Part shown: piece by piece, positions 39,437 through 56,487 of the stretch
Numbering within the stretch: the stretch's first letter is position 1
How the letters are laid out: each line of letters starts with the position of its first letter
From: Methanogenium marinum
GTDB lineage: Archaea > Halobacteriota > Methanomicrobia > Methanomicrobiales > Methanomicrobiaceae
DNA: 64,000 nucleotides
NCBI RefSeq assembly: GCF_028912405.1
Contig: NZ_JAKELO010000002.1
Span: forward strand, 2,055,276-2,119,275
Direction: 5' to 3'
Position numbers and translations under genes: made by a program
Notes under the pieces: generated by a model
Database searches by the model: none
What the model was told of the DNA's origin: nothing
What the model saw: the letters and a program-made list of their open reading frames with translations, nothing else

Positions 39437-40684
39437 TTATTTATTCAGCCTCTGTACAACGAACAGTGCTCCAAGTGCTGTGAATATTCCTACACACATG
39501 GGAAGCCCTGATGTTGTGGGTGTTGGTGACGAAGGTTCCGGAGATGCAGGTGTTGCTGCAGGTGCATCAGTAGAACTCGGTGTTTGTTGAGAAACAGTTG
39601 CTTCCGGAACGGATTCCGTATTCCCAAAGGTCATAAGTGCATAGGAGCCGGATTCTGATATTTCTGCAACAAGTGCATCCCCTCTCAGTTCTGTGGGGAG
39701 CATGGTCCATGTTTCGTCTTTGTACTCAGCAATAAACCGTGCATTTGTCTTCATGCTGTCATCACCGGTAATTGCAAATTCAGCAGGTTCACTGAATCTG
39801 AGTGATTCAGGTGATATGATATATGCGCCGTAAACCAGTTCCCATTCATCCGGTATGTCCTTAGGATGGGAGTTTTTCATAATAAGGGCATCTTCAATCT
39901 CTGCACCGGAAACAGTTTCTCTCAGTGCATTGAGCGTTGCATATCCATCACTTGAAGATATAGAGAGGTCGGTGTCCGGGGTTGCTGTGGGGTTTGGTGA
40001 ATAATCGTCACTGTCATCGCTGCTTCCTGATGGTGACTGTGTAGGAACAGTTGTTGGGATTACATCCCCGACCTGTATTTTTTGATTTAATGCTTCAGTT
40101 CCGTCAACTGATACAATAATGCTGACTGTTCCCTGTTCCATATCGTTAATAGTGTACGAGATTGTTGAGTCGTCATCTCCTGATTTTATTCCATCCAGTT
40201 CAAATGAAACGGAAACCTGGTTTGTATCCTCAATGGCTTTTCCTGATATCTCAAGCATGGATATCTCAGATCCCTCGTTGATCTGTCCCAAACTTTCCTG
40301 ATCGCTAATTATCCCACCGGGTGCCGGGTGTTCATCACTCCAGAACTGGAGACTTTTGATTGGGTTTTCAGGGTCCTGCTGGTATCTGAATTTCGCCCAT
40401 ACTACTGATTCTGCCTGAAGTGTGACTGTTGTGTCAGAGAGAGCAAAGGGCATATTCAGATTATTGGATGAGAATGCAAATTCCAGATTCTCATCTGGGG
40501 CAATTTCCGCACCAATATGCATGGAATAAGAGCTGCTGTCTTCAAGTCCCTGAATCGTTACGGTTATTTGTCCCCCTTCCTGTATCTGGTCTGGTCCTGC
40601 GGTTATTGAAAGTGCCTGTACTCCACCCGCAATAAATGCAAGAGCCAGAATACACAGAAATGTTCTGTAAATTTTTTGCGTCAT
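39437..40684 (-). CDS. Anchored surface protein
   Basis: A 415-aa exported protein. It has a signal peptide (KIYRTFLCILALAFIAGG, cleavage after VQA), a beta-rich domain (SITAGPDQIQEGGQITVTIQGL) like those in other methanogen surface proteins, a Ser/Asp/Thr/Pro linker at about 215-240, a second domain ending in ETWTMLPTELRGD and ESGSYALMTFG, and a long Pro/Thr/Ser stalk ahead of a C-terminal membrane helix (LPMCVGIFTALGALFVVQRLNK). The second domain resembles the one near the end of the protein at 51182. The function is unknown; attachment to the membrane with the domain outside is clear. It is transcribed away from the cohesin-dockerin operon. Confidence 0.75.
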   Translation of the reverse strand: MTQKIYRTFLCILALAFIAGGVQALSITAGPDQIQEGGQITVTIQGLEDSSSYSMHIGAEIAPDENLEFAFSSNNLNMPFALSDTTVTLQAESVVWAKFRYQQDPENPIKSLQFWSDEHPAPGGIISDQESLGQINEGSEISMLEISGKAIEDTNQVSVSFELDGIKSGDDDSTISYTINDMEQGTVSIIVSVDGTEALNQKIQVGDVIPTTVPTQSPSGSSDDSDDYSPNPTATPDTDLSISSSDGYATLNALRETVSGAEIEDALIMKNSHPKDIPDEWELVYGAYIISPESLRFSEPAEFAITGDDSMKTNARFIAEYKDETWTMLPTELRGDALVAEISESGSYALMTFGNTESVPEATVSQQTPSSTDAPAATPASPEPSSPTPTTSGLPMCVGIFTALGALFVVQRLNK

Positions 40685-41255: not shown

Positions 41256-44200
41256 ATGGATTCATTTGTGAAAAAATGCATTTTTGTGTCTTTTGCATTA
41301 CTCGTTCTTATTGCGTCCGCGTCAGCAGCGCAATTTGACGGTGATGGAACTGGCGAATATGTGATTGTAGACCCCCCCGAGGAGGGTGGTGGGGAACGTA
41401 TCCCGGTATTTCTGGTCATGAGTGACCAGCCAACCGGGACTATGTCTGTACAGACGATGAAAACTACTGCTGTGTCACAGCAGGAAATGGCAATGAATTC
41501 GCTTGCCGGAATTGATTCCTATGCTGCAGAGACTGCACAGTCATTCTGGATTGTAAATGCCATTCGTGTGGAGGCATATCCGTCAGATCTGGACAGGCTT
41601 GCCTCGCTGCCCGGCGTAGATCATATCGAACGTGATTTCATCGTGACAGTGACTGACCCGGTAGTTGAGACGATGAATGAGGTCTCTCCTGATTACATTG
41701 AGGATTCAACAGAAGAGACTGGTGTGGTCTGGAGTGCAGATTATATTAATGCACCATCTGTTTGGGATACCGGAAATCTTGGTGCCGGAGTCAGTATCTC
41801 TATTGTTGACACTGGTATTGACGGCGACCATCCTGCCTTTGGCGACCGGATTGTTGCCTGGGCTGATTTTGTCAATGGTAACAATGAAACACCATATGAT
41901 GACAATGGTCATGGCTCCCACTGTGCTGGCATATCTGCCGGAGGTGCGGTGGAAACTACCTATTATAATGGAGATCTGATTGATGTGACGCTGGGAGTTG
42001 CACCCGGTGCAAACCTGATGGGTGCGAAGGTTCTCAACTCAGCAGGCAGCGGATATAATTCAGATATTCTGAAAGGTGTAGAGTGGTCGGTTGACAATGG
42101 GGCAGACATCATCTCCATGAGTCTTGGAAGTTTTGTGGGGCCGTGGGAAGATGACTTTTCTGATGAAGAAATTGTTGGGACTCTTGGTGGGAATTCGTCT
42201 GTAGATGTAGTCATCGAAACAGCTTCATCATATAATGTATCCTGGGAACCACAGTTTATTGTTGGTGCTGTGTATGCTGACAGTTCGGCTATCGATGAGA
42301 TTATCAGTGGTGGTAATCTGACCTTTGCAGTAACTGACGCAAACGGCGACACTGCCACAGGCAGTGCAATCGACTGGCTTGGATTTGACACCCCTTCGAA
42401 TATCTACTACTTCAAAGCACCGTATGCAGACAATGCAGGTGCATGGAGGGGCGACTGGAAAGCGACACTGACAAACAATGTCAATGAGAGCGTTGATATT
42501 GAAAAAATCCGCATTGCAGTATGTTATCAGTCTAATGGGCAAGACGCCTTTTCATTAGCGCTGAACAACCTCGTGGAGCAGGGTATAACTGTTGTTGTCT
42601 CCGCCGGAAACGATGGTGAATATGGCCTCGGTACAATCGGAACCCCGGGTACCGCAGAGGATGTCATCACCGTTGGTGCCACCGAGTACATGATGGACTA
42701 TCTGGCGACATTCAGCAGTATGGGCCCGGTGGACTCAGATGATCCCTATGTCAAACCTGATGTTGTTGCTCCGGGCGTAGGCATCATCTCTTCATATATG
42801 GATGGAGGATATGCAATCCTTGACGGAACATCGATGTCGACACCTGCGGTGGCAGGAGCAGCAGCCCTGATGCTTGCAGGAAACAGCAGTCTGTCTCCTG
42901 ATGAAATTAAAGACGCCCTGATGTCTTCTGCAGTTCACATCGATGAGAATGGTGCTGTTCATGACACAATGGTGATGAACAATGCGTATGGTGCCGGACG
43001 AGTGAGCGCCTATGAAGCTGTCAATGTAACAGGTGGTCTTGGGAACACCCCGATTGGTGATGGTGTTGTTTATGAACTCTTTGGCGGTGCAGTATCAGAA
43101 GGTTATGATGTCTATGGTGATGTGCTGCCTGTTACCGCAGTCGCATGGAATGTCACCGGTGGCGTACCGATGGCAGGTGAAGAAATCGAATTTTCTGTCC
43201 GGAGAAACTCGTATGGTCTTCCCTATGACTATGTGAACAAGACGGTAGATACAGATTCATCAGGAAATGCCCTGACAACAATGGATCTTTCAGGGTATGA
43301 GGATGAGACGTCCCTGATGTTACGTATTGCCTGGAATGATCATGTAATTAATGAGTATCATTTCAAGACAGTTCCTTCGGAACATTCAGTCGGTGACTTT
43401 GTCTATCGTAATGGGTGGTACAGGGCAGCACCGAATGACACCGTGCTCATTAAGTATCCGTTACTCAATCCCATTGGGACACCATACACAGATGCCGTGG
43501 TATTGACACTTAACAACTCTGGGTCAGATGTGTATACCGAGACGATTTCCCCGGTTGCCGGAGTAGTGGCGACAGAACTGAATCTCAGCGCAATTCCTGG
43601 TGCTGCAGATGAGTATGGATACAATTCCATTTATCTGGATGATGTGAATGTCGGTTCGTTAAACGTCAATTCCGAGGACTATGACTATTATGAATTAATG
43701 ATTTCTCCGGAAAAATCAATTTGCAGTCCGGGTTCTTCAATTGACATCAGTGCAGTCATTACATCCGGTCATTACGGGAACTCTGCCAGTACTACAGCTA
43801 CTGCCACGGTGGTGACATTCACTGAGACTCTGGTAAATTCCCTCACGACAGAAGAACGCAATCTGCTCCTAGGAGAAGAAATCACATCTCTTGCAGAATT
43901 GGAAGCTGAAATTCAGGGTATGGATGAAAATGAATATTCTGAAAATTTCGCGATGAACAGTGGTATTGGTGTCTATCATCTTACCATGCCGGAGGATGCA
44001 TATCTTGCATTGGTGTATGTTACAACACCGCTTACACCGTATTCTTATGAGAGTGCGGCTCTGGTATATGGTGAACTAACACCGTGGATACAGCACAGCA
44101 CCACTGAGAGTTATTTTGAGATTCCGTACAGTGAATTGACCTACCTCAGTAGAACTTCATCAGAATGGTCTGCAACATGGGATCAGGAAGAATATGAAGT

Positions 44201-46568
44201 TGTTCCTGCAGATGAGGCATCACTTGGCTTCACTGTGTATACCTATGCCCTTGATGAGGCTACGAATTCTTATGTCGGAGAACCTGCTTCAGACCGAACT
44301 GTCTATCTCTACACCAGAGATGGTGCATTAAGCGCCACCACCGGAACGGATGGTACGTGCATCTTTACCCTCACTCCAGGTGAGACGGATGATGCGGGCT
44401 ATGAATACCTTGCAGTGACCGGCGGTGTGGATATTTATGGTAATATATATGATAGGGCATCTCCGTTATATCCTGAATCGGGTTCAAGAATATTAGCAGA
44501 TCTGATTGCCTTTGAACCAGTGGTTCCGTCGTATCATTCCTACCTATACGCGGATACGGTAAGCCGTACTATCTCGGTTGTGGCAGACAATGATACACGC
44601 ACGATAACCATTGCCAGCAATGGTCCTGATGATGAATCCATCCAGGAAAAAGGGATATTTACCTTTGATAAGCTGGGAGCATATTTCTCCTCTTCCGGCA
44701 CATTCGATGCTTCAACAGTGGCGTTTGATGGAACATACAGTAAATCTGTGGAAGTGCCCGAAAAGGGATATTACACGGCTGAATTTAATCTGCTGAACCC
44801 GGTTGAGGGAAATCTACAGTATTCAGGCACAACATTCACAGACACATCATATACCCTGACATATCCAATCATGGATGATCTGCTCCTGGGCCAATCTGTT
44901 CCGGTAACCTTCACGCTCATGGATCATAATGGAAATCCTGTCCAGGGTGCAAAGGTACTCTTTAAACTGGGTGCCGGAGCAGGATATGATTTGTATTCAT
45001 ATGGGGTATATGGAGATCCAAGAGAAGAAAATATCTGGACTTATCTGGGAGAATATCCGGATCCATACAGTCAGGTGTATACCGGGTCCACAGACACCAA
45101 TGGTCAGTTGATTCTGACGTTTGTTGCACCGACATCTGCAGAGCAGGCATACCGGGAAGAACTCGGCAGTTCCAGTTCAGTGGATTATCAGGTTGTCTGC
45201 ATCTATGATGATATGCTTATTTCCTCAGGATATGGGTATTTCATGCCGGTTGCAGGAGAATTGCCTGATTTCGTGCCAAGTGTGGATGCACCAGATGTAG
45301 TCAAGATTAACCGTGATGACAGTATCCGTGTGGATAACCTTGGTCTTCTTGTGAAAAATGTAGGGACTGCTGATTATATTGATAGCGGCATAAATGTTCA
45401 GGTGGTAGCGGAAGTTGCCAGTTATAAAAAAGAAACATCGTTCAGTCACAGCGTTCTGATAGGGGAAACTGCAGAAGTGCTCTACCTCAACGTGGATGAA
45501 GATGCTGAGACGTATGGAATTGATCCTGAAACAACCAGTTTTCCACAGGATAAAACGGTGAAAGTAACTGTAAATCCTGAACCTCGGGCAGTAGAAGAAC
45601 TCCGCTATGACAACAATGTCTATAACCACAATCTGAGGATCACAGCCCCTGATTTGGTAACAGAGGTAATCACACCTGCAGCAACGACTCAGTTTGTTGT
45701 AACACCAATCGGTGTGAAGGTTACAAACGCAGGGGATGTCGCAAGTGTGGCAACAACCCTGAGTTATTATATCACCGGCACTCCGGATGAACCCCCAATT
45801 GCAATCGCTGCTCTTGAAGCCGGTGAATCCACCACTATCTGGAGGAATGGCACCCTTTCAACAGGTACATATGAGATTTCTGCCGCGGTCAACCCTGGTC
45901 ATGTGACCGATTATGAGACGTCATACACAAACAATGAGGATACACGAAATCTCATTTCCTATGCTGAAGCACCGGCATCAATTGTGCTGCCCCAGAATAG
46001 TGTGTTTGTTCCGGGTACAAGCCTGGAAATACCCATTGTTGTGGAGGATGGTGCAGACCTTGCAGCCTATCAGATGACCTTCAGCTACAATGCTTCCGTA
46101 ATCGACGTTTCAAATGTTGTTTCAGGAGATGTTGATCTGACCGGGGTAAATCTGCAGGATGGGTATGTGATCTTTAATGGTGCCCAGACGAGCGGTGTAA
46201 GCGGCAGTGTGACCATTGCCACCCTTGTAATAGATGTTATCGGAAGCACCGATGATGAGACGCTTCTTACGATTTCGAATGCAGCAGAATTATGGGACAT
46301 AAATGGTTTCGCTGTGCCTGTCACTGTCACTGACGGCAGTGCAACACTCCTTCTCTATGGAGATGCGAATGATGACGGCGTTGTAAGTCAGGCAGATACC
46401 CTGAAAGTGCTTAAATGGGTTGTTGGTCTTGACACAGATAAACCAACAATCGGTACACGTCTCTTACAGACAGATGTCACAAAGAACAGCCATGTGGACG
46501 TGGGTGATGCAATGTTTATCGCCCAGTATAATGTGGAATTGAGGGATGAATACTTCAATATCCTCTAA
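41256..46568 (+). CDS. Secreted subtilisin-like protease with CARDB, cohesin-like and dockerin modules
   Basis: A 1770-aa exported protein. Signal peptide to about residue 22 (cleavage ASA); propeptide of inhibitor I9/fervidolysin type at 45-130; S8 peptidase with Asp 185 (IVDTGIDGDHP), His 219 (NGHGSHCAG), oxyanion Asn 452 (SAGND) and Ser 526 (GTSMSTPAVAG), so all catalytic residues are present. An insertion of about 200 residues lies between His and Asn. A long beta-rich region follows, then two CARDB-like domains (about 1336-1570), a cohesin-like domain (about 1575-1697) and a C-terminal dockerin (about 1702-1765) with calcium loop D-A-N-D-D-G-V-V-S-Q-A-D from Asp 1703. No membrane anchor: it is probably held by a cohesin on another protein. 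First gene of a four-gene operon. Confidence 0.9.
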   Translation: MDSFVKKCIFVSFALLVLIASASAAQFDGDGTGEYVIVDPPEEGGGERIPVFLVMSDQPTGTMSVQTMKTTAVSQQEMAMNSLAGIDSYAAETAQSFWIVNAIRVEAYPSDLDRLASLPGVDHIERDFIVTVTDPVVETMNEVSPDYIEDSTEETGVVWSADYINAPSVWDTGNLGAGVSISIVDTGIDGDHPAFGDRIVAWADFVNGNNETPYDDNGHGSHCAGISAGGAVETTYYNGDLIDVTLGVAPGANLMGAKVLNSAGSGYNSDILKGVEWSVDNGADIISMSLGSFVGPWEDDFSDEEIVGTLGGNSSVDVVIETASSYNVSWEPQFIVGAVYADSSAIDEIISGGNLTFAVTDANGDTATGSAIDWLGFDTPSNIYYFKAPYADNAGAWRGDWKATLTNNVNESVDIEKIRIAVCYQSNGQDAFSLALNNLVEQGITVVVSAGNDGEYGLGTIGTPGTAEDVITVGATEYMMDYLATFSSMGPVDSDDPYVKPDVVAPGVGIISSYMDGGYAILDGTSMSTPAVAGAAALMLAGNSSLSPDEIKDALMSSAVHIDENGAVHDTMVMNNAYGAGRVSAYEAVNVTGGLGNTPIGDGVVYELFGGAVSEGYDVYGDVLPVTAVAWNVTGGVPMAGEEIEFSVRRNSYGLPYDYVNKTVDTDSSGNALTTMDLSGYEDETSLMLRIAWNDHVINEYHFKTVPSEHSVGDFVYRNGWYRAAPNDTVLIKYPLLNPIGTPYTDAVVLTLNNSGSDVYTETISPVAGVVATELNLSAIPGAADEYGYNSIYLDDVNVGSLNVNSEDYDYYELMISPEKSICSPGSSIDISAVITSGHYGNSASTTATATVVTFTETLVNSLTTEERNLLLGEEITSLAELEAEIQGMDENEYSENFAMNSGIGVYHLTMPEDAYLALVYVTTPLTPYSYESAALVYGELTPWIQHSTTESYFEIPYSELTYLSRTSSEWSATWDQEEYEVVPADEASLGFTVYTYALDEATNSYVGEPASDRTVYLYTRDGALSATTGTDGTCIFTLTPGETDDAGYEYLAVTGGVDIYGNIYDRASPLYPESGSRILADLIAFEPVVPSYHSYLYADTVSRTISVVADNDTRTITIASNGPDDESIQEKGIFTFDKLGAYFSSSGTFDASTVAFDGTYSKSVEVPEKGYYTAEFNLLNPVEGNLQYSGTTFTDTSYTLTYPIMDDLLLGQSVPVTFTLMDHNGNPVQGAKVLFKLGAGAGYDLYSYGVYGDPREENIWTYLGEYPDPYSQVYTGSTDTNGQLILTFVAPTSAEQAYREELGSSSSVDYQVVCIYDDMLISSGYGYFMPVAGELPDFVPSVDAPDVVKINRDDSIRVDNLGLLVKNVGTADYIDSGINVQVVAEVASYKKETSFSHSVLIGETAEVLYLNVDEDAETYGIDPETTSFPQDKTVKVTVNPEPRAVEELRYDNNVYNHNLRITAPDLVTEVITPAATTQFVVTPIGVKVTNAGDVASVATTLSYYITGTPDEPPIAIAALEAGESTTIWRNGTLSTGTYEISAAVNPGHVTDYETSYTNNEDTRNLISYAEAPASIVLPQNSVFVPGTSLEIPIVVEDGADLAAYQMTFSYNASVIDVSNVVSGDVDLTGVNLQDGYVIFNGAQTSGVSGSVTIATLVIDVIGSTDDETLLTISNAAELWDINGFAVPVTVTDGSATLLLYGDANDDGVVSQADTLKVLKWVVGLDTDKPTIGTRLLQTDVTKNSHVDVGDAMFIAQYNVELRDEYFNIL

Positions 46569-46586: not shown

Positions 46587-49500
46587 ATGAAAAATATGAA
46601 ATTATGTATTATTGCCCTCCTCTGCTTTGCAGTATTATGTAGTGCTGTTTCAGCGGCAACTCTCTCTATTGATCCTTCTGAATCAATAATCAATAAAGGA
46701 GAGTCTGCAGAACTTACGCTGCGGGTAGATGATGTTGAGCAACTTGGAAGTTTTGATATTGATGTCACCTGGAACCCTTCTCTGGTATCTTTATCAGATT
46801 CGGATGTAACAGCAGGGCCGTCGATTGACTCGTTAGAGATGAATGTTCAGAGTGGCCGTGTACGTGTTGCAGGCCTGAATTCAACTCTTGAGGGAATATC
46901 CGACAGCGCTGATTTATGCTATCTGTCGTTCACCGGTTTAAGTGACAGTGGTGAAACGACATCTGTTTCGATATCGGTGAATGATTATGGTTTTTTAAAT
47001 TCAACGTCCGGTGAAGACATTGAAGTAACGGATATAACAAACGGCAGTATCACCACGACAGTTTCAAGTGTCGTTGATGCACGTATCGGTATTTCCAACA
47101 GACAGGTTCCGGTAAATCAAGAGACTCTCTTCCGCGCCAGTGTTGCAAACCAACGCAGTTATGATACCTCTGCTCTGAATGTCAATGTAACCATTGCAAA
47201 AGATGGTGCTGTTGTCCAGAGTGAGACCTATCCTGATGTTACCATTTCCGCAGGAGATACTTATTCCGAAGAAATTGCATGGACACCAACAGCAGGGGGA
47301 ACATATCTGGTTAGTATCGCCGTAACCTCAGATGATGCTCTCAGGGGCAGCCCAACTGATGAAAAAATAGTTTCGTCGATTGACTACCAAATAAGCTTCC
47401 CTGATGGACAGGTATATGGTACGGATCGTGCGCAGACTGACAACTGGTTCTACAATTATGTCCGGGTTAGTGCGAATAAGGCAGGTCCGGTAAATTTAAC
47501 CATTGATGCACCGGATTCCTTTGAAATCTCTGGAGGGAAAGAACGGACTACATATCTCTATAACAGCCAGTGGAATTATCTCTATGTCTGGATGAAATCA
47601 AATGAACCAGGCAGTTTCAGTGGAGCTGACTTTTCCTACAATCTATCAGCAAATGGAAAAAGCGCTTCTGTTAATGGTAATGATCTAACAGTTTACGTTC
47701 CTTCAATCGAGGTAACATCAGTCAGTTCAGCTCGAGTATCTGACCTGGGCACGTCGGATACTATCAATTTTAACACCCTCCATACAAACAACACCATCCG
47801 TAATGTCACAACGATTGTGGCACAGTCAGGTGCACAGGGACGAACCCTTTCCGGGCTTGGATATCTTGTTGGGTATCCGTATGGCTGTGTCGAGCAGACC
47901 ACATGCAAGATGCTTGCATCGATGAATGTGAAGGATTACTATCTCGGGCGTGGAGATCGGCCAAGTGACTTTGATACAATCCGTGAACAGGCAAATGAGT
48001 CTGTCAGTGCCGGAATCGATGTACTGGTAAATGGTGGACTTCGCGGTCAGCATGATGATGGCGGATGGAGTCTCTGGGGCTATGGCCTTTCAGAATCATC
48101 GTCCAGTTCGTATGCAAGCTACACTCTTGCAAAGATAAACCAAACAGATGAAGACTTAAACCGCCTGCTTGAAGACAAGATCTCTAATGGTGATACGGTT
48201 ACTACGGGAACTGTGAACTTTGAGAAACTTATCGAGTGGTTCCACGAGAATCCTGATACTGCTGAAGGTACATGGTCCTGGAGTGCTCCTGTCTGCCATT
48301 CATGGACAAAGGAATCCAACACGGCGTTTGTCATGGTCATCCACGACATGATCAACCAGTCAGGGGATGTCCAGCAGCTGTATCGTGGCTACATGGAAGA
48401 GAACATGCAGAATGCGACGAAGTATGTCATTGGTAACCAGGTTAATAGTGGACCTGATGAAGGTTCATTCTCCTCTGGCAGTGACAAGAATATGGCAACT
48501 GCACTTGGTCTGTGGGGTCTGGAATCCTTTGGTCTGCCATCCAGCACAGTAACCGAAGCAGGTATTACTGATGCAAAAGAGAATGCTGCGGCTTATCTTG
48601 TTGGAAGTCAGGAAGTAGATGGTTCATGGTCGGCAGCTTCTAACTATGGATGGAATTCCAAAGGCCGTGTTACCGAGAGCACAGCTTATGCACTTCTTGC
48701 CCTGAATGCAACAGGAGTTGCAAATGATAATGAAACTATCAGTAAGGGTGTTGGCTGGCTTGTTGATACCTATGAGAGCAGTGGAAGCTGGGGATATACC
48801 TGGGCAAGTCAGGCAGCAATTGATGCACTAATTGTATGCCAGGGAAGTGAGATCTCTACCGGAACCGTTGGTGTATATGTTGACGGAGACCTGGTGAACA
48901 CGTTCACCATGGATGCAACCAATCCACGTGAAGAGTACACACTCACCTCTGCCCAGATGACAGCGATGATGGCAGATGGCACTGAAGAAAGAGATATCTT
49001 CGGTGATGGCTTCAGCACGGTGAGATCACACGAAGTGACCGCAGAACTCACCGCAGGAGACGGTCCTGTTGTTCTCTCTGTTGAGAACAGCCAGTGGGCA
49101 CCACTCAATGAAATTGACAGTACAATCAGAAACTCGCGTCTAATCCAGATGGAGGGTGTCGATGAGAGTTTCGAAATTCCTCAGATTAACACAAATATTG
49201 ACATCCTTTCGGAAGTTGAATTAGATGTCGGAGGATTTTCTCTTACGCTGGACTCAGTTCCTTCCCCAATGGTGGTAGATGAAGCAACGGATGTTAGTAT
49301 AGGCGTGATCTCGGATGCAGACCTGTTCTCACCGATGATTGAAGTTCCTATTGCAGACTTCTCCTTTGTCAACACATCTGATATCACCGATAGCAAAGGA
49401 GCTTCGGTAGCCTATGAAGTCCTTAACAGTACTGCAAATGAGAACCAGGATTCAATCTTCATTGAGCCGGAAAGCTGGGTGCAGGGCACTGCATACTCAT

Positions 49501-50411
49501 ATACATTTGAAATTGTTCCGGAAAACTATGGAACACTCAATATGTCATTGCGGATTATTCCGTTGTATGATGACAGCAATGTTGCATACACCAGTCATGA
49601 CTTCGATGTGACGGGAACGGGCAATGTTACCATCCATGTTCAGGATGAGAATTATGCTCCGGTTGTTGCAGACAGTATTACTGTTGACGGTGTCACTGTC
49701 ACCGATCAATCGACCAATGAATTTAGTGACCTTTTCGAGGATACCTATCAGTTCAGTGTCACCAAGTCCGGATATCCGGATGTAAGTGGTACCGTCGAGA
49801 TCAATTATGGTGAGAATGCTGTCTACAATGTAACCCTTCCCACGACAATGACCGAACCTGTTCTGATTCTTTCAGAGGGTGGTTCCGGCAGCATTGCAGG
49901 TGTGGCGCAGATCCCGGCAGAACAACTGAATGCTTTGAATAGCGAGAATGCTATCTACAACATCTCCGTGATGGGAGATGGCGGTGAACTTGGTGTTGCA
50001 CTTCAGTTCCCACAGCGGTATCTTGTCAACAGTCCGGTTGTAACACTGAACGGTGTTGTGCTTGGTGAGGATGATTATGAATTAACTCCGGGAACGTTTG
50101 TATACGGAGATGCCGGAGCATACACGACTACCAATGCAACGCTTGTTGTCTATAACACACCTTCAGGCACCAATTATATTGGTATGGAGTTTGATGGCGA
50201 CGTTCTTGGTGATGCTACGGGTGAAGGACTAGTAACGAGTCGAGATTCATTATTTATCCTGAACTTTGTTGTTGGCAATATTGGTGGATTTGATACCTTT
50301 GATTACCCTGATGTTGTCGACAGGGATGCTCATTCAATTACATCACGTGATTCACTTCTGATACTGAACAGAGTTGTGGGTAATGTCGATGAATATTATC
50401 AATGGAGCTAA
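46587..50411 (+). CDS. Secreted alpha-2-macroglobulin-like thioester protein with cohesin-like and dockerin modules
   Basis: A 1274-aa exported protein: signal peptide to about 23 (cleavage VSA); cohesin-like domain 24-155 (LSIDPSESIINKGESAELTLR); CARDB-like domain about 165-265; then LVGYPYGCVEQTTCKMLASM at about 428-447, the thioester site of the alpha-2-macroglobulin family with Cys 434 and Gln 437. Residues 455-755 form an alpha-toroid (HDDGGWSLWGYG, VDGSW, SSGSWGYTWASQAAIDAL) as in thioester domains. The C-terminus (about 1208-1270) is a dockerin with repeats VTSRDSLFILNFVVG and ITSRDSLLILNRVVG; the first calcium loop is complete (from Asp 1209), the second is one residue short. The N-terminal macroglobulin domains and bait region of classical members are not evident. 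GGAG lies 8 bases before the ATG; 18 bases after the protease gene. Confidence 0.85.
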   Translation: MKNMKLCIIALLCFAVLCSAVSAATLSIDPSESIINKGESAELTLRVDDVEQLGSFDIDVTWNPSLVSLSDSDVTAGPSIDSLEMNVQSGRVRVAGLNSTLEGISDSADLCYLSFTGLSDSGETTSVSISVNDYGFLNSTSGEDIEVTDITNGSITTTVSSVVDARIGISNRQVPVNQETLFRASVANQRSYDTSALNVNVTIAKDGAVVQSETYPDVTISAGDTYSEEIAWTPTAGGTYLVSIAVTSDDALRGSPTDEKIVSSIDYQISFPDGQVYGTDRAQTDNWFYNYVRVSANKAGPVNLTIDAPDSFEISGGKERTTYLYNSQWNYLYVWMKSNEPGSFSGADFSYNLSANGKSASVNGNDLTVYVPSIEVTSVSSARVSDLGTSDTINFNTLHTNNTIRNVTTIVAQSGAQGRTLSGLGYLVGYPYGCVEQTTCKMLASMNVKDYYLGRGDRPSDFDTIREQANESVSAGIDVLVNGGLRGQHDDGGWSLWGYGLSESSSSSYASYTLAKINQTDEDLNRLLEDKISNGDTVTTGTVNFEKLIEWFHENPDTAEGTWSWSAPVCHSWTKESNTAFVMVIHDMINQSGDVQQLYRGYMEENMQNATKYVIGNQVNSGPDEGSFSSGSDKNMATALGLWGLESFGLPSSTVTEAGITDAKENAAAYLVGSQEVDGSWSAASNYGWNSKGRVTESTAYALLALNATGVANDNETISKGVGWLVDTYESSGSWGYTWASQAAIDALIVCQGSEISTGTVGVYVDGDLVNTFTMDATNPREEYTLTSAQMTAMMADGTEERDIFGDGFSTVRSHEVTAELTAGDGPVVLSVENSQWAPLNEIDSTIRNSRLIQMEGVDESFEIPQINTNIDILSEVELDVGGFSLTLDSVPSPMVVDEATDVSIGVISDADLFSPMIEVPIADFSFVNTSDITDSKGASVAYEVLNSTANENQDSIFIEPESWVQGTAYSYTFEIVPENYGTLNMSLRIIPLYDDSNVAYTSHDFDVTGTGNVTIHVQDENYAPVVADSITVDGVTVTDQSTNEFSDLFEDTYQFSVTKSGYPDVSGTVEINYGENAVYNVTLPTTMTEPVLILSEGGSGSIAGVAQIPAEQLNALNSENAIYNISVMGDGGELGVALQFPQRYLVNSPVVTLNGVVLGEDDYELTPGTFVYGDAGAYTTTNATLVVYNTPSGTNYIGMEFDGDVLGDATGEGLVTSRDSLFILNFVVGNIGGFDTFDYPDVVDRDAHSITSRDSLLILNRVVGNVDEYYQWS

Positions 50412-50413
50412 TA

Positions 50414-51130
50414 ATGTGGAATAAAAAATTTATAACCCTTTTATTAATTTTCACCTTTTTTTGTTTAGTCTCTAATGTGGGTGCTGCAGACGTAGCACTT
50501 GAAAACAATACACTGCTGGTAAAAGGAGTCGATGACAGCATCGGTCTTGGGGCTTTTAGTGTGGTCCTGACCTATAGTGGGAATCTAAGCGTACAGTCTG
50601 TGGAGGGTGAATCAGGGTTTATGGTTGCATCAAATATCCAAAATACTAAATATGAGACTTTTATTGCTGGGATATCCGGCGAGGGTCTGACTGGTGATAT
50701 TCCGGTTGCCTCCGTAAGCACAACAGGTTCAGGAGTTATTGAAGTATCAGTAAGGGAACTCGTAAATGTGAAAGGAGACCCGATTTCTTTCACAAATGAA
50801 GAATTTATTGGTGTTGTGCCTACTCCGGCAGCCGGTGATGAAGATGCTATTCCTGACATTTATGTTTCAGATTCCGAAGAAAATCCTTTAGAACAACAGG
50901 TTACAACAACAGCAACAACGCCGGAAGCGACCGTGAGTGAAACCGAAATTCCTGTTGATACTATTGTTCAGACTCCGGCATCTGCGACACAGGTATCATC
51001 TGAAGATAATGATATTCCGGTAGTTCCGGATACAAATGAGAAGACAGTTCCGCCAACACAGTCACCGTTTAATATCGTTATTGTACTAATTGCAATTGGA
51101 AGCGTATTTATATTAAAAAACGAAAAATGA
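50414..51130 (+). CDS. Membrane-anchored cohesin-like protein
   Basis: A 238-aa protein. Start ATG 50414 has GGAG 6 bases upstream inside the end of the previous gene, from which it is separated by 2 bases. It has a signal peptide (KKFITLLLIFTFFCLV, cleavage near GAA), one cohesin-like beta domain (about 25-145; SIGLGAFSVVLTYSGNLSVQSVEG, then SVRELVNVKGDPI), a Thr/Pro/Glu-rich stalk of about 70 residues and a C-terminal helix (FNIVIVLIAIGSVFIL) followed by KNEK. A single cohesin on a stalked anchor is the arrangement expected of a cell-surface receptor for dockerin-bearing proteins, such as the two encoded just upstream. The binding pair is inferred. Confidence 0.8.
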   Translation: MWNKKFITLLLIFTFFCLVSNVGAADVALENNTLLVKGVDDSIGLGAFSVVLTYSGNLSVQSVEGESGFMVASNIQNTKYETFIAGISGEGLTGDIPVASVSTTGSGVIEVSVRELVNVKGDPISFTNEEFIGVVPTPAAGDEDAIPDIYVSDSEENPLEQQVTTTATTPEATVSETEIPVDTIVQTPASATQVSSEDNDIPVVPDTNEKTVPPTQSPFNIVIVLIAIGSVFILKNEK

Positions 51131-51181: not shown

Positions 51182-54100
51182 ATGACGAATCAAACCAAAA
51201 GGATTCTGGCTGTTCTAATTGTCCTGTTATTATGCGTAACGGGAGCAACTGCAGCTGGAGAAGGTACGCTATCCGCATCTGATGTCGCCGACGTGGCATT
51301 GGGTGAGAGTGGCGTAGTGACGTTTACGTTAACAAATGACTTTGACCCCAAAGTAGGTACGTTGACGTACAGAGTGTATTATGATGAGACAATCGCTACG
51401 GCGGCTAGTACAGAAACTATTGTTAATGGAGGTGTTGCGCCGGGAACACTGAATAGTGGGATGACATTTACTCTGTCTACTACTGCTGGTGTTGACAACA
51501 ACGATGCAGACCTTTTTACTGTTTCTTTCACCTCACCCAAAAATGATGGAAGCCGTATGGATGTTGGCATCGTAGCAAGTGAAGCCTATGATACAACCGG
51601 TATGACGGATTATCTGGGTGATATTACCATTGTAAACGGCACCTTCACCACAAAGGATGAAGTGGCTCCGGTCGGGACCATTACAACTCCAACCAATGTC
51701 GGTAAAGACTTCAAGATAACAGGTACTATTACCGATGTTGGTGGTATGGGTTCAGCAAGTGCAATCCTTGACGGAACGAACTACCCGCTCGCTCTCACTA
51801 ATTCGGCCAACGGTGAATACTTGTACACCGCTGATGTATCATGGCCTGAATTTGAGGATGGTATTACGCTGACTGTCAATGCAGTGGATGCAGCAGGAAA
51901 TGTTGCAGAACCTCTGGCTACGAAAACAATTAATGTTAAAAACATTGGTTTCTCCGACCCTTCACCTGCAGATGGAAGTTACATCAATACTGAACCCTCA
52001 CCAGTTAAGGTATTCATGTCACAGATTGACACGACTACCGTGGTTATGACTTTGGGCGGTGCCGTTGGCCCGATGGTTATTGATGATGTTTCATTTGTCT
52101 CCGGATACGCAATTGGTGACATTGGTCTCCATGGTGATGGTCTATTCTGGGTGAATGTAACCGGTACTGACACAGTTGCAGCAGAAGAGCGCTTCCTCAA
52201 CTGGACGTATACCGTTGACACATCTGCTCCAACACTTGACGTGGCAATCACTGATTCTGATGGTGACGGATTTATTGAAGCAAATGAAGTCCTGAACTTT
52301 GACTGGACAGTAAGTTCTCCAGGTCTCAGTGGATTTAAGAATGTCTCAGTTGTTGAGCCATCCACAGGCAGTGTTCTGTTGTCAAACGGCAATGCGGATA
52401 GCAGCGCTACACTAACTATACCCGTTGGAAACCGTGACCTCTCATTCCGTGCATATGACAATGCAGGAAATTATGCAAAATACGATTTCCATCTGTATAA
52501 CAACTATGTTGTATGGGTAGACTCAACAAAGGTTGGCACAATTGGTGGACTTGATACAGAGTTTACCGCAGCAGTTGACCTTGACCTGACAGCAACCAGT
52601 ATGGTAGAACTATACAACGGTCGCAGTGTTTTTGCACCCGACATTGGAACTGTCACACGGCAGGTCAAAGAGGTAGGTCAGGTAACAAGTGACACCTATG
52701 TCACCGTTGACAACCGTGCTGATGCAACATATGCAGGCACAGACACATACCAGGAACTCTGGGTGTATGACCCTACAGACGTCATTGATTTCGAGATAAC
52801 TGCTCCTGCAATCACACATGCAAGTGTTATGATGTTTGAGGCAAACGAATCATACCTCAATGAACTCATTGACAGTAAATCAACAAGCAACATCGACTAT
52901 GAACAACTGATTAAGCAAGCATCCTACATCTTCATTGATGGGGGATGGACACAGATTTCTGTTGAGAAAGATGGTTCATTTATTCAGGAACAGGCATATG
53001 GTGAAGCGCTGACAGTATCCGGTGACATTACAACAACGTTGAAGCTCGCTGAAAATCAGGTGGATCTTTCCTCCGGATTCCGCATGAGTGAAGATTGTGT
53101 TCCATTTGATGCAACAACCACTCCTGATATCGGTGACTATGCAATTGCAGCAATTGCCTTTGATGGCGACCGTATCGGTGGCATTGCAGTAATGCCGGTA
53201 GTTGTCCTTGAGTCAGCAGAAGAAGGTGTGCTCTCCGCTACCAGCATACCTTTAGACGGAACCTTTGATGCAAGTTTCAGTTCCGACTGTAAGTATTTCG
53301 GTGTCGCTCTTTACCGTGACACAGTGTATGATGCAACAGCAACTATTGATTTCGCGAATCTTAATTATGACATGGTTACCTTAGACCTCTCAGCAGGTGG
53401 GGCGGCCACAGAGAAACTCTGGCATAACATTTATATCACCCCTGGTGCAGGAAAATATGCATATGTTAATGCTGACAATTCGCTGACATTCGATGCTAGC
53501 GGTCTTGAAGCAGGCAATTACAAGGCGGTTCTTGCTGGTCTCAGTAACAGTGGCACAGCACAGGCATTCGGTGTTCACGACATTGCGATCGGTTCCAGTC
53601 TGAATATCAGTAATATCATCGCCCAGACGGGTACAACTGGTGCATCAGTCACCTGGACGACCAACAATGCAGCAAACAGTACTGTTGAATACGGCCTAAC
53701 CAGTGCATATGGATATTCTGTATCTGATGCTCAGTTTGTCACTAGACACACCTTGGGTATCAACGGTCTTACGTCCAACACGGTCTATCATTATCGTATA
53801 ATCTCGGTTGACCCATCCGGAAACAAAGTTATTTCCAGTGATTCTTCCTTCATAACCAAGTCCTCCGGCAGTAGCGGCGGTGGCGGCGGCGGCGGTAGCT
53901 ACACAAGTCCAGTGGAAGTTACAACGCCATCTGTGAAATTTACCACACTCGGATATCTACAGACAGATTCGAATGGTATAGTCCAGAACCCCGTATTGGT
54001 CTCTGCAGCTGATGGCCTCTCATCAATCTATATCGGAGCTGGTGTGAAGGCACTTGATGCCGACGGACAGCCTCTGGATAGTGTGATTATTCAGGGAACT

Positions 54101-54547
54101 GACGATGTTCCATCAACAGGTTCATTTTCATTTGCTGGTCACGCAGTGGAATTAGGACCATCAGGGGCAACCTTTAGTCCGGGGATTGAGTTAACATTCC
54201 AGTTTACAGAAGAAGAGTGGAATAATCTTGGAGCAGGAGAAACATTCGCAATTAAGTGGTTCAATGAAGGAACAGGTGAATGGGAAGCTATTCCAACCAC
54301 CGTTGATCCTATCAACCATACGGTTGTCGGTGTGATTACCCACTTCAGTACATTTGCTGTCTTCAAAGAAATTGGAGAAATGCCAACTAGTGTTGCAACA
54401 CAAGCTCCAACAGAAACCCCGGTGCCTACCGAAACTGGTAATGGTGCTCAAACCGGCGGATTCCCATGGGTATGGTTTGTTGTAGTAATTGTGATGGTTG
54501 CCATAATTGGCGCTGGATATTACTACATGCAGCAGCAGAAGAAATAA
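51182..54547 (+). CDS. Large anchored surface protein with cohesin-like and fibronectin-type domains
   Basis: A 1121-aa exported protein: signal peptide to about 24 (cleavage ATA); cohesin-like domain about 25-160 (LSASDVADVALGESGVVTFTLT); Ig-like modules to about 430; a middle region resembling S-layer-associated domains; a fibronectin III/purple-acid-phosphatase-N-like domain at about 815-890 (GASVTWTTNNAANSTVEYGL); a Ser/Gly linker with seven Gly in a row; a domain ending HFSTFAVFKE; a Thr/Pro stalk; and a C-terminal helix (FPWVWFVVVIVMVAIIGAGYYY) with basic tail. It lacks a dockerin, so fits a large anchored scaffold. Last gene of the operon, 51 bases behind the smaller cohesin protein. 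A T7 run follows the stop. Confidence 0.82.
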   Translation: MTNQTKRILAVLIVLLLCVTGATAAGEGTLSASDVADVALGESGVVTFTLTNDFDPKVGTLTYRVYYDETIATAASTETIVNGGVAPGTLNSGMTFTLSTTAGVDNNDADLFTVSFTSPKNDGSRMDVGIVASEAYDTTGMTDYLGDITIVNGTFTTKDEVAPVGTITTPTNVGKDFKITGTITDVGGMGSASAILDGTNYPLALTNSANGEYLYTADVSWPEFEDGITLTVNAVDAAGNVAEPLATKTINVKNIGFSDPSPADGSYINTEPSPVKVFMSQIDTTTVVMTLGGAVGPMVIDDVSFVSGYAIGDIGLHGDGLFWVNVTGTDTVAAEERFLNWTYTVDTSAPTLDVAITDSDGDGFIEANEVLNFDWTVSSPGLSGFKNVSVVEPSTGSVLLSNGNADSSATLTIPVGNRDLSFRAYDNAGNYAKYDFHLYNNYVVWVDSTKVGTIGGLDTEFTAAVDLDLTATSMVELYNGRSVFAPDIGTVTRQVKEVGQVTSDTYVTVDNRADATYAGTDTYQELWVYDPTDVIDFEITAPAITHASVMMFEANESYLNELIDSKSTSNIDYEQLIKQASYIFIDGGWTQISVEKDGSFIQEQAYGEALTVSGDITTTLKLAENQVDLSSGFRMSEDCVPFDATTTPDIGDYAIAAIAFDGDRIGGIAVMPVVVLESAEEGVLSATSIPLDGTFDASFSSDCKYFGVALYRDTVYDATATIDFANLNYDMVTLDLSAGGAATEKLWHNIYITPGAGKYAYVNADNSLTFDASGLEAGNYKAVLAGLSNSGTAQAFGVHDIAIGSSLNISNIIAQTGTTGASVTWTTNNAANSTVEYGLTSAYGYSVSDAQFVTRHTLGINGLTSNTVYHYRIISVDPSGNKVISSDSSFITKSSGSSGGGGGGGSYTSPVEVTTPSVKFTTLGYLQTDSNGIVQNPVLVSAADGLSSIYIGAGVKALDADGQPLDSVIIQGTDDVPSTGSFSFAGHAVELGPSGATFSPGIELTFQFTEEEWNNLGAGETFAIKWFNEGTGEWEAIPTTVDPINHTVVGVITHFSTFAVFKEIGEMPTSVATQAPTETPVPTETGNGAQTGGFPWVWFVVVIVMVAIIGAGYYYMQQQKK

Positions 54548-55500: not shown

Positions 55501-56487
55501 ATGACAAAATCTCCAACAACAGAAGATCTCTACACAGCATTTGGAACAGGAATCTGGTTTCGCGATCTCGTGGGAATACTGGTCTGGTTAGGCATCGCTG
55601 TTCTGACAATATATGTACCCTATCTGAATGAAAGTCCGCTAAGAATTGTGTTTGCACTTCCGGTTGTGCTCTTTATTCCGGGATATGCGCTCATTGCGGC
55701 ACTGTTTCCCGGAAATGAAGAAATTGATACTCTTGAACGAATTGCACTCTCATTTGGATTATCAATAGCGGTGGTGCCGCTGATTGGGCTTGCACTGAAT
55801 TATACTCCCTGGGGAATACGGCTGGACCCGATCGTCATTTCACTGGTTATCTTCACCGTCCTTATGGTGCTCGCGGCCCACTGCCGGCGTGCACTGCTGG
55901 CACCGGAAGAACGGTTTGCCATGCCTGTACAGTCCTGGTGTACGGAAGCAAAGACAGAACTCTTCTCCGAAGACCAGAGTACCCTTGACCGTGCCCTTTC
56001 CTACATCCTCATTATTGCAATTGTGGCGGCAGTTGTCACTACCATATACGTAATTGTTGTGCCCAAGGAGGGTGAACATTTCACCGAATTTTATATTCTC
56101 GGAGAAGGAGGGATGGCAGCGGATTATCCTGACCGGTTAACCGTGGGGACTCCACAACCGGTGATCATTGGTGTTGGGAATCATGAATTCAGACCAGTAG
56201 ATTATACCATTGAGGTCTGGGAAATGAATCAGGAATGGATTGCCGAAGAAAACCGTTCTGAAATATATTCTATGGGACTTTTAGACCGGATTCCGGTCTC
56301 GGTGCCTCACAATGAGACAACTGAGATTCCCTACAGCTTTACCGTAACCGATGGTGGAACAAATAGAATTCAGTTCCTTCTCTTCACGGATACGGTGCCT
56401 GATGATTCAGTCTCAGGGACGGAACGGATCAATGCCTCGTATCGGGACCTTCATCTCTGGGTGGATGTTCGTCCTTCATACGGGTAA
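55501..56487 (+). CDS. DUF1616 membrane protein
   Basis: A 328-aa protein with four N-terminal membrane helices (about residues 24-42, 48-68, 82-100, 110-130), the ALPVVLFIPGYALIAALFP block typical of DUF1616, a further helix at 165-190 and an extracellular C-terminal domain of about 140 residues (EFYILGEGGMAADYP, TPQPVIIGVGNHE). DUF1616 proteins are common in archaea next to surface-glycan or surface-protein genes; their role is unknown. AGGT lies shortly before the ATG. The 3' end overlaps the tail of the minus-strand gene 56429-57232 by 59 bases. Confidence 0.88.
   Translation: MTKSPTTEDLYTAFGTGIWFRDLVGILVWLGIAVLTIYVPYLNESPLRIVFALPVVLFIPGYALIAALFPGNEEIDTLERIALSFGLSIAVVPLIGLALNYTPWGIRLDPIVISLVIFTVLMVLAAHCRRALLAPEERFAMPVQSWCTEAKTELFSEDQSTLDRALSYILIIAIVAAVVTTIYVIVVPKEGEHFTEFYILGEGGMAADYPDRLTVGTPQPVIIGVGNHEFRPVDYTIEVWEMNQEWIAEENRSEIYSMGLLDRIPVSVPHNETTEIPYSFTVTDGGTNRIQFLLFTDTVPDDSVSGTERINASYRDLHLWVDVRPSYG

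Follow-up and report, generated by a model that had tools for sequence, protein, structure and literature searches.

A complement-type thioester protein encoded beside its own subtilase in methanogens and their relatives

The window analysed here, a 64,000-nucleotide stretch of the Methanogenium marinum genome (contig NZ_JAKELO010000002.1, positions 2,055,276 to 2,119,275), encodes a secreted thioester protein (TEP) that is, we are nearly certain, a member of the alpha-macroglobulin/TEP (complement) superfamily. A match to the profile of the thioester domain (TED), superposition on complement structures and conservation of a Cys-x-Glu-Gln (CxEQ) motif together identify it as a member that lacks macroglobulin domains 1-6 (MG1-6) and the bait region. 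The TEP gene is inherited with a protease gene of its own, which suggests that some archaea possess a two-part, protease-triggered covalent tagging device. With modest confidence, we favour the view that TEP is a covalent tagging protein, assembled at the cell surface and activated or matured by its partner subtilase.

The original prediction, made from the letters of the window, had proposed a thioester-type motif, GCVEQ, at Cys434 and Gln437, and this is confirmed by profile match, motif conservation and fold. The codon of Cys434 occupies 47886-47888 and Gln437 follows three residues further, in the context Y-P-Y-G-C434-V-E-Q437; the span originally proposed, 47870-48840, corresponds to residues 428-752 and is the TED. 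A profile search for a TED of the alpha-2-macroglobulin (A2M) type finds PF07678 (TED_complement) with 29 bits on the whole protein, above the cut-off of 22, and with 34 bits on the isolated region, and in an alignment of TED regions 25 of 25 members match this profile at E<=0.01. We rejected a chance motif as the sole explanation, although a proteome of this composition should contain G-C-x-E-Q about once by chance (1.0 per 640,000 amino acids); for the longer Y-P-x-G-C-x-E-Q-T the corresponding figure is about 0.0001. A toroid of the squalene-cyclase/prenyltransferase kind was also rejected; sequence matches to it exist, confined to the shared toroid repeats, and the complement family is the better one on motif, CUB and fold.

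Relatives were sought in 199 genomes of the same order. Type A (GCVEQ) comprises 17 close full-length proteins, TEP of the window included, that are 57-100% identical, and type B (GCPEQ) comprises eight more distant proteins of 1700-2000 amino acids. One further TEP gene lies in G359, a genome from another family of the phylum (one strong match in 57 genomes of its order), and five lie in four of 243 genomes of another order, which we take to be haloarchaea; in a sample of the phylum, 17 of 392 genomes gave a strong match (E<1e-100). The total is 31 TEP genes in 30 genomes. All 31 retain Cys-x-Glu-Gln, with the residue between Cys and Glu varying and identity across the region falling to about 22-34%. 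This count leaves out the canonical GCGEQ proteins of the same phylum (about 1400 amino acids, for example L119, L120 and L125; up to 288 bits to PF07678), as well as L026-L028 and many weak toroid-repeat matches. The latter two were rejected as TEPs because they are toroid-repeat proteins without CxEQ; judged by eye, the repeats of L026-L028 stand before an apparent substrate-binding domain. Four type B proteins, termed B2 (L054, L056, L057 and L058; about 1960-1990 amino acids), have extra N-terminal sequence with a cohesin, recognised by Pfam in L054 and L058.

Two AlphaFold models of TEP (predicted local distance difference test (pLDDT) 80.5 and 78.1; predicted template modelling score (pTM) 0.64 and 0.56) find their fold matches on complement TEDs. 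The model with pTM 0.64 superposes on the MG7-CUB-TED-CUB part of native complement C3 (residues 827-1412) with Z 27.8 over 493 residues at 5.9 Å, and superposition on C4d gives Z 28.5 over 285 residues at 2.8 Å. The thioester adhesins of Gram-positive bacteria have their own, unrelated thioester-domain fold. Profile-profile alignment of 25 archaeal TEDs with canonical TEDs extends over 309 columns (E 8.6e-22); in it GCVEQ falls on GCGEQ, and H571 on a His that is invariant in the canonical set, at the position that we take to be C3 His1126 and that is Asn in human A2M. Single-profile and profile-profile matches, the conserved motif and the fold thus all support the proposal of an A2M/complement-type TED. 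Two cysteines, Cys570 beside H571 and Cys751, are invariant in all 17 type A proteins and were not observed at the corresponding positions of the other aligned TEPs; they may be linked by a disulfide close to the thioester, which would leave Cys434 free.

A functional thioester in TEP is, in our judgement, likely. The alternative is a scaffold without a thioester, with Cys434 and Gln437 as structural leftovers; complement C5, which has no thioester bond, offers a parallel. Such a scaffold would suit the low similarity of TEP to known TEDs and the low model confidence just before Cys434. Against this, Cys, Glu and Gln have been retained in every TEP despite the varying middle residue and the low identity, and H571 is invariant throughout type A, so we find the scaffold improbable.

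The most likely order of domains in TEP is cohesin-like, CARDB-like, MG7-like, CUB-TED-CUB, Ig-like, PEGA-like and dockerin (Table 1). The SQAAIDAL segment and the CARDB/Ig-like stretch described in the original prediction are present. So are its cohesin-like N-terminus, which matches the solved cohesin 2xdh (E 0.005), and its dockerin, in the form of a C-terminal dockerin-like repeat; in the window TEP both modules fall below the Pfam cut-offs, and in relatives they exceed them. It had also been proposed that this N-terminus replaces the macroglobulin domains and bait region. That holds for MG1-6 and the bait region, for which there is no match by Pfam or in the model and in whose stead about 265 residues of cohesin-like and CARDB-like sequence precede the MG7-like domain, but not for the MG7-like domain itself or for the CUB domain split by the TED, both of which are kept. 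The beta domain predicted where MG8 would stand gives a collinear, insignificant profile match for an MG8/receptor-binding domain (prob 1.3-1.4%, E 0.04), and neither anaphylatoxin nor C345C has a Pfam match in TEP at E<=1.

The protease anticipated directly upstream proved to be a subtilase, encoded in the same operon. Its catalytic Asp, His (HGSHCAG) and Ser (GTSMSTP) are present, and its C-terminus is Big_1/CARDB/cohesin/dockerin-like. Because some S8 protease is present in 99 of the 199 genomes of the order, mere presence says little and it is adjacency that is informative. In 21 of 31 loci the gene immediately upstream of TEP, on the same strand, encodes a cognate subtilase: 16 of 17 in type A, four of eight in type B (one clade, B1) and the locus of G359. 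The subtilase gene stands two genes upstream in G424 and in one G700 locus, and in the haloarchaeon G436 protease and thioester domain are fused in one chain of 2668 amino acids, which brings the loci with a cognate protease to 24 of 31. No S8 other than the linked protease was found in nine genomes (G079, G037, G127, G072, G068, G132, G036, G004 and G359). The catalytic motifs are present in all 23 linked proteases examined, a set that leaves out the protease of L042, which is cut by a contig end.

A tree of S8 domains covers 15 of the 23 linked proteases (seven type A, four type B, L127, L128, L166 and L126) and L165; 20 S8 stretches were taken for it, of which 14 gave a usable row. The linked proteases group with two relatives that have no TEP, apart from 16 of 17 ungrouped S8s, and the seventeenth (L178) pairs with the long-branched protease of G634 just outside the linked group. 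The fork of the linked group minus L165 stands at 90/87 and is drawn open. L165 and L178 have long branches. For related sequences the shuffle control has little force, with 11 of 500 shuffles as low. We rejected the idea that every nearby S8 is a partner, since in the tree those near G104 (L058) and G080 (L056) are placed with unrelated S8s. Conserved adjacency, one fusion and the grouping of the linked proteases lend strong comparative support to a functional link between protease and TEP.

What kind of link this is can be weighed from the same data. Membership of the family and a protease encoded next door would both be expected of an A2M-like trap, whose captured clients would be the subtilase or foreign proteases. 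Yet MG1-6 and the bait region are not found upstream of the MG7-like domain, and a catalytically intact, co-inherited protease of the same operon, which exists even as a fused copy, would be an odd victim; a trap therefore seems to us very improbable.

A break in the gene itself points to processing. In G424, both G700 loci and G436, TEP ends at the equivalent of about residue 842, and a separate gene encodes the downstream half, a protein of 399-422 amino acids that matches the window TEP from residues 883-910. The N-terminus of this protein is signal-peptide-like, and in the two looked at by Pfam its dockerin end is above the cut-off. The gap coincides with the stretch predicted to be disordered in both models (residues 845-884). 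In our reading the split, which makes two secreted proteins out of one, marks by natural means where processing takes place.

The gene that follows TEP encodes a small protein of 242 amino acids with a candidate membrane anchor. When its family (21 members) is compared profile to profile with the N-terminal domain of TEP, the match has prob 93% and E 3.6e-7; it is by this comparison that a cohesin-like domain is recognised in it, Pfam and a PDB sequence search having found none. In haloarchaea, one counterpart has a PGF-CTERM anchor motif at its C-terminus. These sequence features suggest that TEP is displayed at the membrane through its dockerin by the 242-residue protein.

In the explanation that we favour, TEP would be secreted and held at the methanogen surface by cohesin-dockerin contacts with this small membrane-anchored partner. 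Cys434 and Gln437 are most likely joined in an internal thioester. TEP would most likely be activated or matured by the subtilase encoded with it, plausibly through a cut in the disordered linker. The acyl group of the TED would then pass, under catalysis by H571, to a nearby surface or protein that offers a hydroxyl or an amine. TEP may serve to capture intruding or neighbouring cells or molecules covalently, or may mediate regulated adhesion. More tentatively, the system could be a minimal archaeal complement-like device, with a C3-like tagger, a subtilase as co-inherited convertase, cohesin-dockerin surface assembly, and cleavage at the linker between CUB and the C-terminal half that releases the thioester onto targets.

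A constitutive surface adhesin or cross-linker would account for part of these data. Its thioester would react untriggered, anchoring the protein, the S-layer or the cell to neighbours, and the subtilase would be a general maturation protease for the surface proteins of the operon. The genes of the cluster do look secreted and carry cohesin, dockerin and Ig modules, TEP persists without a cognate protease in seven of 31 loci, and no bait region is found. However, the protease accompanies TEP through distant lineages, in one of them as a fusion, and the gene split at the linker suggests that processing occurs there. We think the adhesin rather unlikely.

Several observations weigh against protease-triggered tagging by a complement-type thioester. 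Four of the 31 loci (G031, G040, G001 and the second G700 gene) have no S8 in the flanks examined, and three (G634, G104 and G080) have only a non-cognate or uncertain one, that of G634 being divergently transcribed, adjoining TEP and of unsure kinship. Conversely, G012 and G060 have a close B1-type subtilase and no TEP, which speaks against obligatory pairing. With no bait region, the classical trigger is missing. The position of H571 is Tyr in type B and Tyr or Phe in most haloarchaeal copies (alignment read by eye; L127 and L126 have a His nearby, in unsure register), so the chemistry would differ among members. Residues 429-432, just before Cys434, have pLDDT<50 in both models. Finally, a whole-genome scan with PF07678 at E 0.001 missed the TEP locus; the sequence signal alone is thus modest, and conservation and fold are needed beside it.

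Some loci seem to have lost one partner. In G031, of type A, the protease domain is gone and a 920-residue remnant lies upstream. L044 (11892-14654) has lost the subtilase domain and kept the CARDB/cohesin/dockerin end; its TEP has a longer branch in the TED tree (0.51 vs 0.12-0.13) and retains motif and His. The four B2 proteins, all of one clade, have lost the cognate subtilase. L159 (8075-12877) and L160 (7996-12786) are B1-type subtilases without an adjoining TEP, which probably reflects loss of TEP or else another role of the protease.

Table 1. Positions in the window of the TEP gene, its domains and the genes of its cluster
Feature	Position	Strand	Remarks
TEP	46587-50411	+	1274 amino acids, secreted
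N-terminal cohesin-like domain, residues 24-160	46656-47066	+	profile match to solved cohesin 2xdh, E 0.0049
MG7-like beta domain, residues 268-374	47388-47708	+	model residues from 106 superpose on C3 from 827
CUB, first half, residues 373-414	47703-47828	+	model strands; C3/C4/C5 superposition from model residue 211
TED, residues 415-765	47829-48881	+	PF07678; C4d superposition Z 26.9, 3.0 Å, 285 residues
C434-V-E-Q437 thioester motif	47886-47897	+	invariant in 17/17 type A proteins
H571, His position of canonical TEDs	48297-48299	+	profile-profile alignment; invariant in 17/17 type A proteins
CUB, second half, residues 759-839	48861-49103	+	model strands 597-677
Predicted disordered linker, residues 845-884	49119-49238	+	pLDDT<50; gene split here in four haloarchaeal homologues
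Beta domain in the place of MG8, residues ~885-1011	49239-49619	+	predicted in model
C-terminal dockerin-like module, residues 1206-1267	50202-50387	+	weak match to scaffoldin chain; relatives above Pfam cut-off
Cognate subtilase	41256-46568	+	1770 amino acids; S8 domain PF00082, E 8.9e-51
Small cohesin-like protein	50402-51130	+	242 amino acids; conserved position; hydrophobic C-terminus, candidate membrane anchor
Large surface protein	51182-54547	+	1121 amino acids; C-terminal membrane segment; conserved fourth gene of cluster

Two further genes accompany the cluster. A DUF1616 membrane protein (55501-56487, forward strand, 365 bits) has homologues close to the TEP cluster in many loci of Methanomicrobiales, and in the haloarchaeal L128 and L166 these stand between subtilase and TEP. 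On the reverse strand, 39437-40684 encodes a divergently transcribed secreted protein of 415 amino acids, of a family not recognised, that is a conserved neighbour of the cluster in many loci.

Animal complement relies, at its chemical core, on thioester tagging. If our reading is right, protease-gated covalent tagging could be tested outside animals in a prokaryotic version that has a dedicated partner protease, one natural fusion and a natural two-chain split. Such a version would also bear on the question of a single or repeated origin of the complement principle. For the surface biology of archaea, in which little is known of covalent attachment, it would be a defined candidate.

Membership of the family is already known in kind. 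Makarova et al. 2021 (PMC8416519) report, in the accessible part of their paper, CxEQ TEDs in 27 proteins of 24 archaeal genomes; these are secreted, come primarily from Halobacteria and Methanomicrobia, and have varied domain organisations and neighbourhoods that include 'endoproteases'. The authors derive a canonical-type Methanolobus protein from bacteria by horizontal transfer. That part of the text describes no consistent subtilase pairing, fusion, cohesin-dockerin architecture or two-gene split; its figures may draw subtilase adjacency. It is the sole source on archaeal members that our literature search found, PMC12939704 and PMC3328433 being silent on archaea in their accessible parts. 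What appears to be new, being unseen in the literature searched, is the subtilase pairing with the grouping of the proteases, the one fused copy, the break of the gene at the linker, the architecture of cohesin and dockerin modules with a membrane-anchored cohesin-like partner, and the two subfamilies that differ at the His.

The canonical archaeal GCGEQ proteins have a TED homologous to that of TEP, score higher to PF07678 and look like full-length A2M. The bacterial A2M of E. coli, ECAM, shares the TED/CUB fold and a CxEQ motif (CLEQ, PMC3328433); unlike TEP, bacterial A2M is described in the accessible parts of PMC3328433 and PMC12939704 as a protease inhibitor with a full MG array and bait region. 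Complement C3/C4 and insect TEP1 resemble type A TEP in MG7-CUB-TED-CUB, in CxEQ and in the His at the catalytic position, whereas TEP, without MG1-6 and with no anaphylatoxin or C345C match, has instead cohesin/dockerin modules and a dedicated subtilase.
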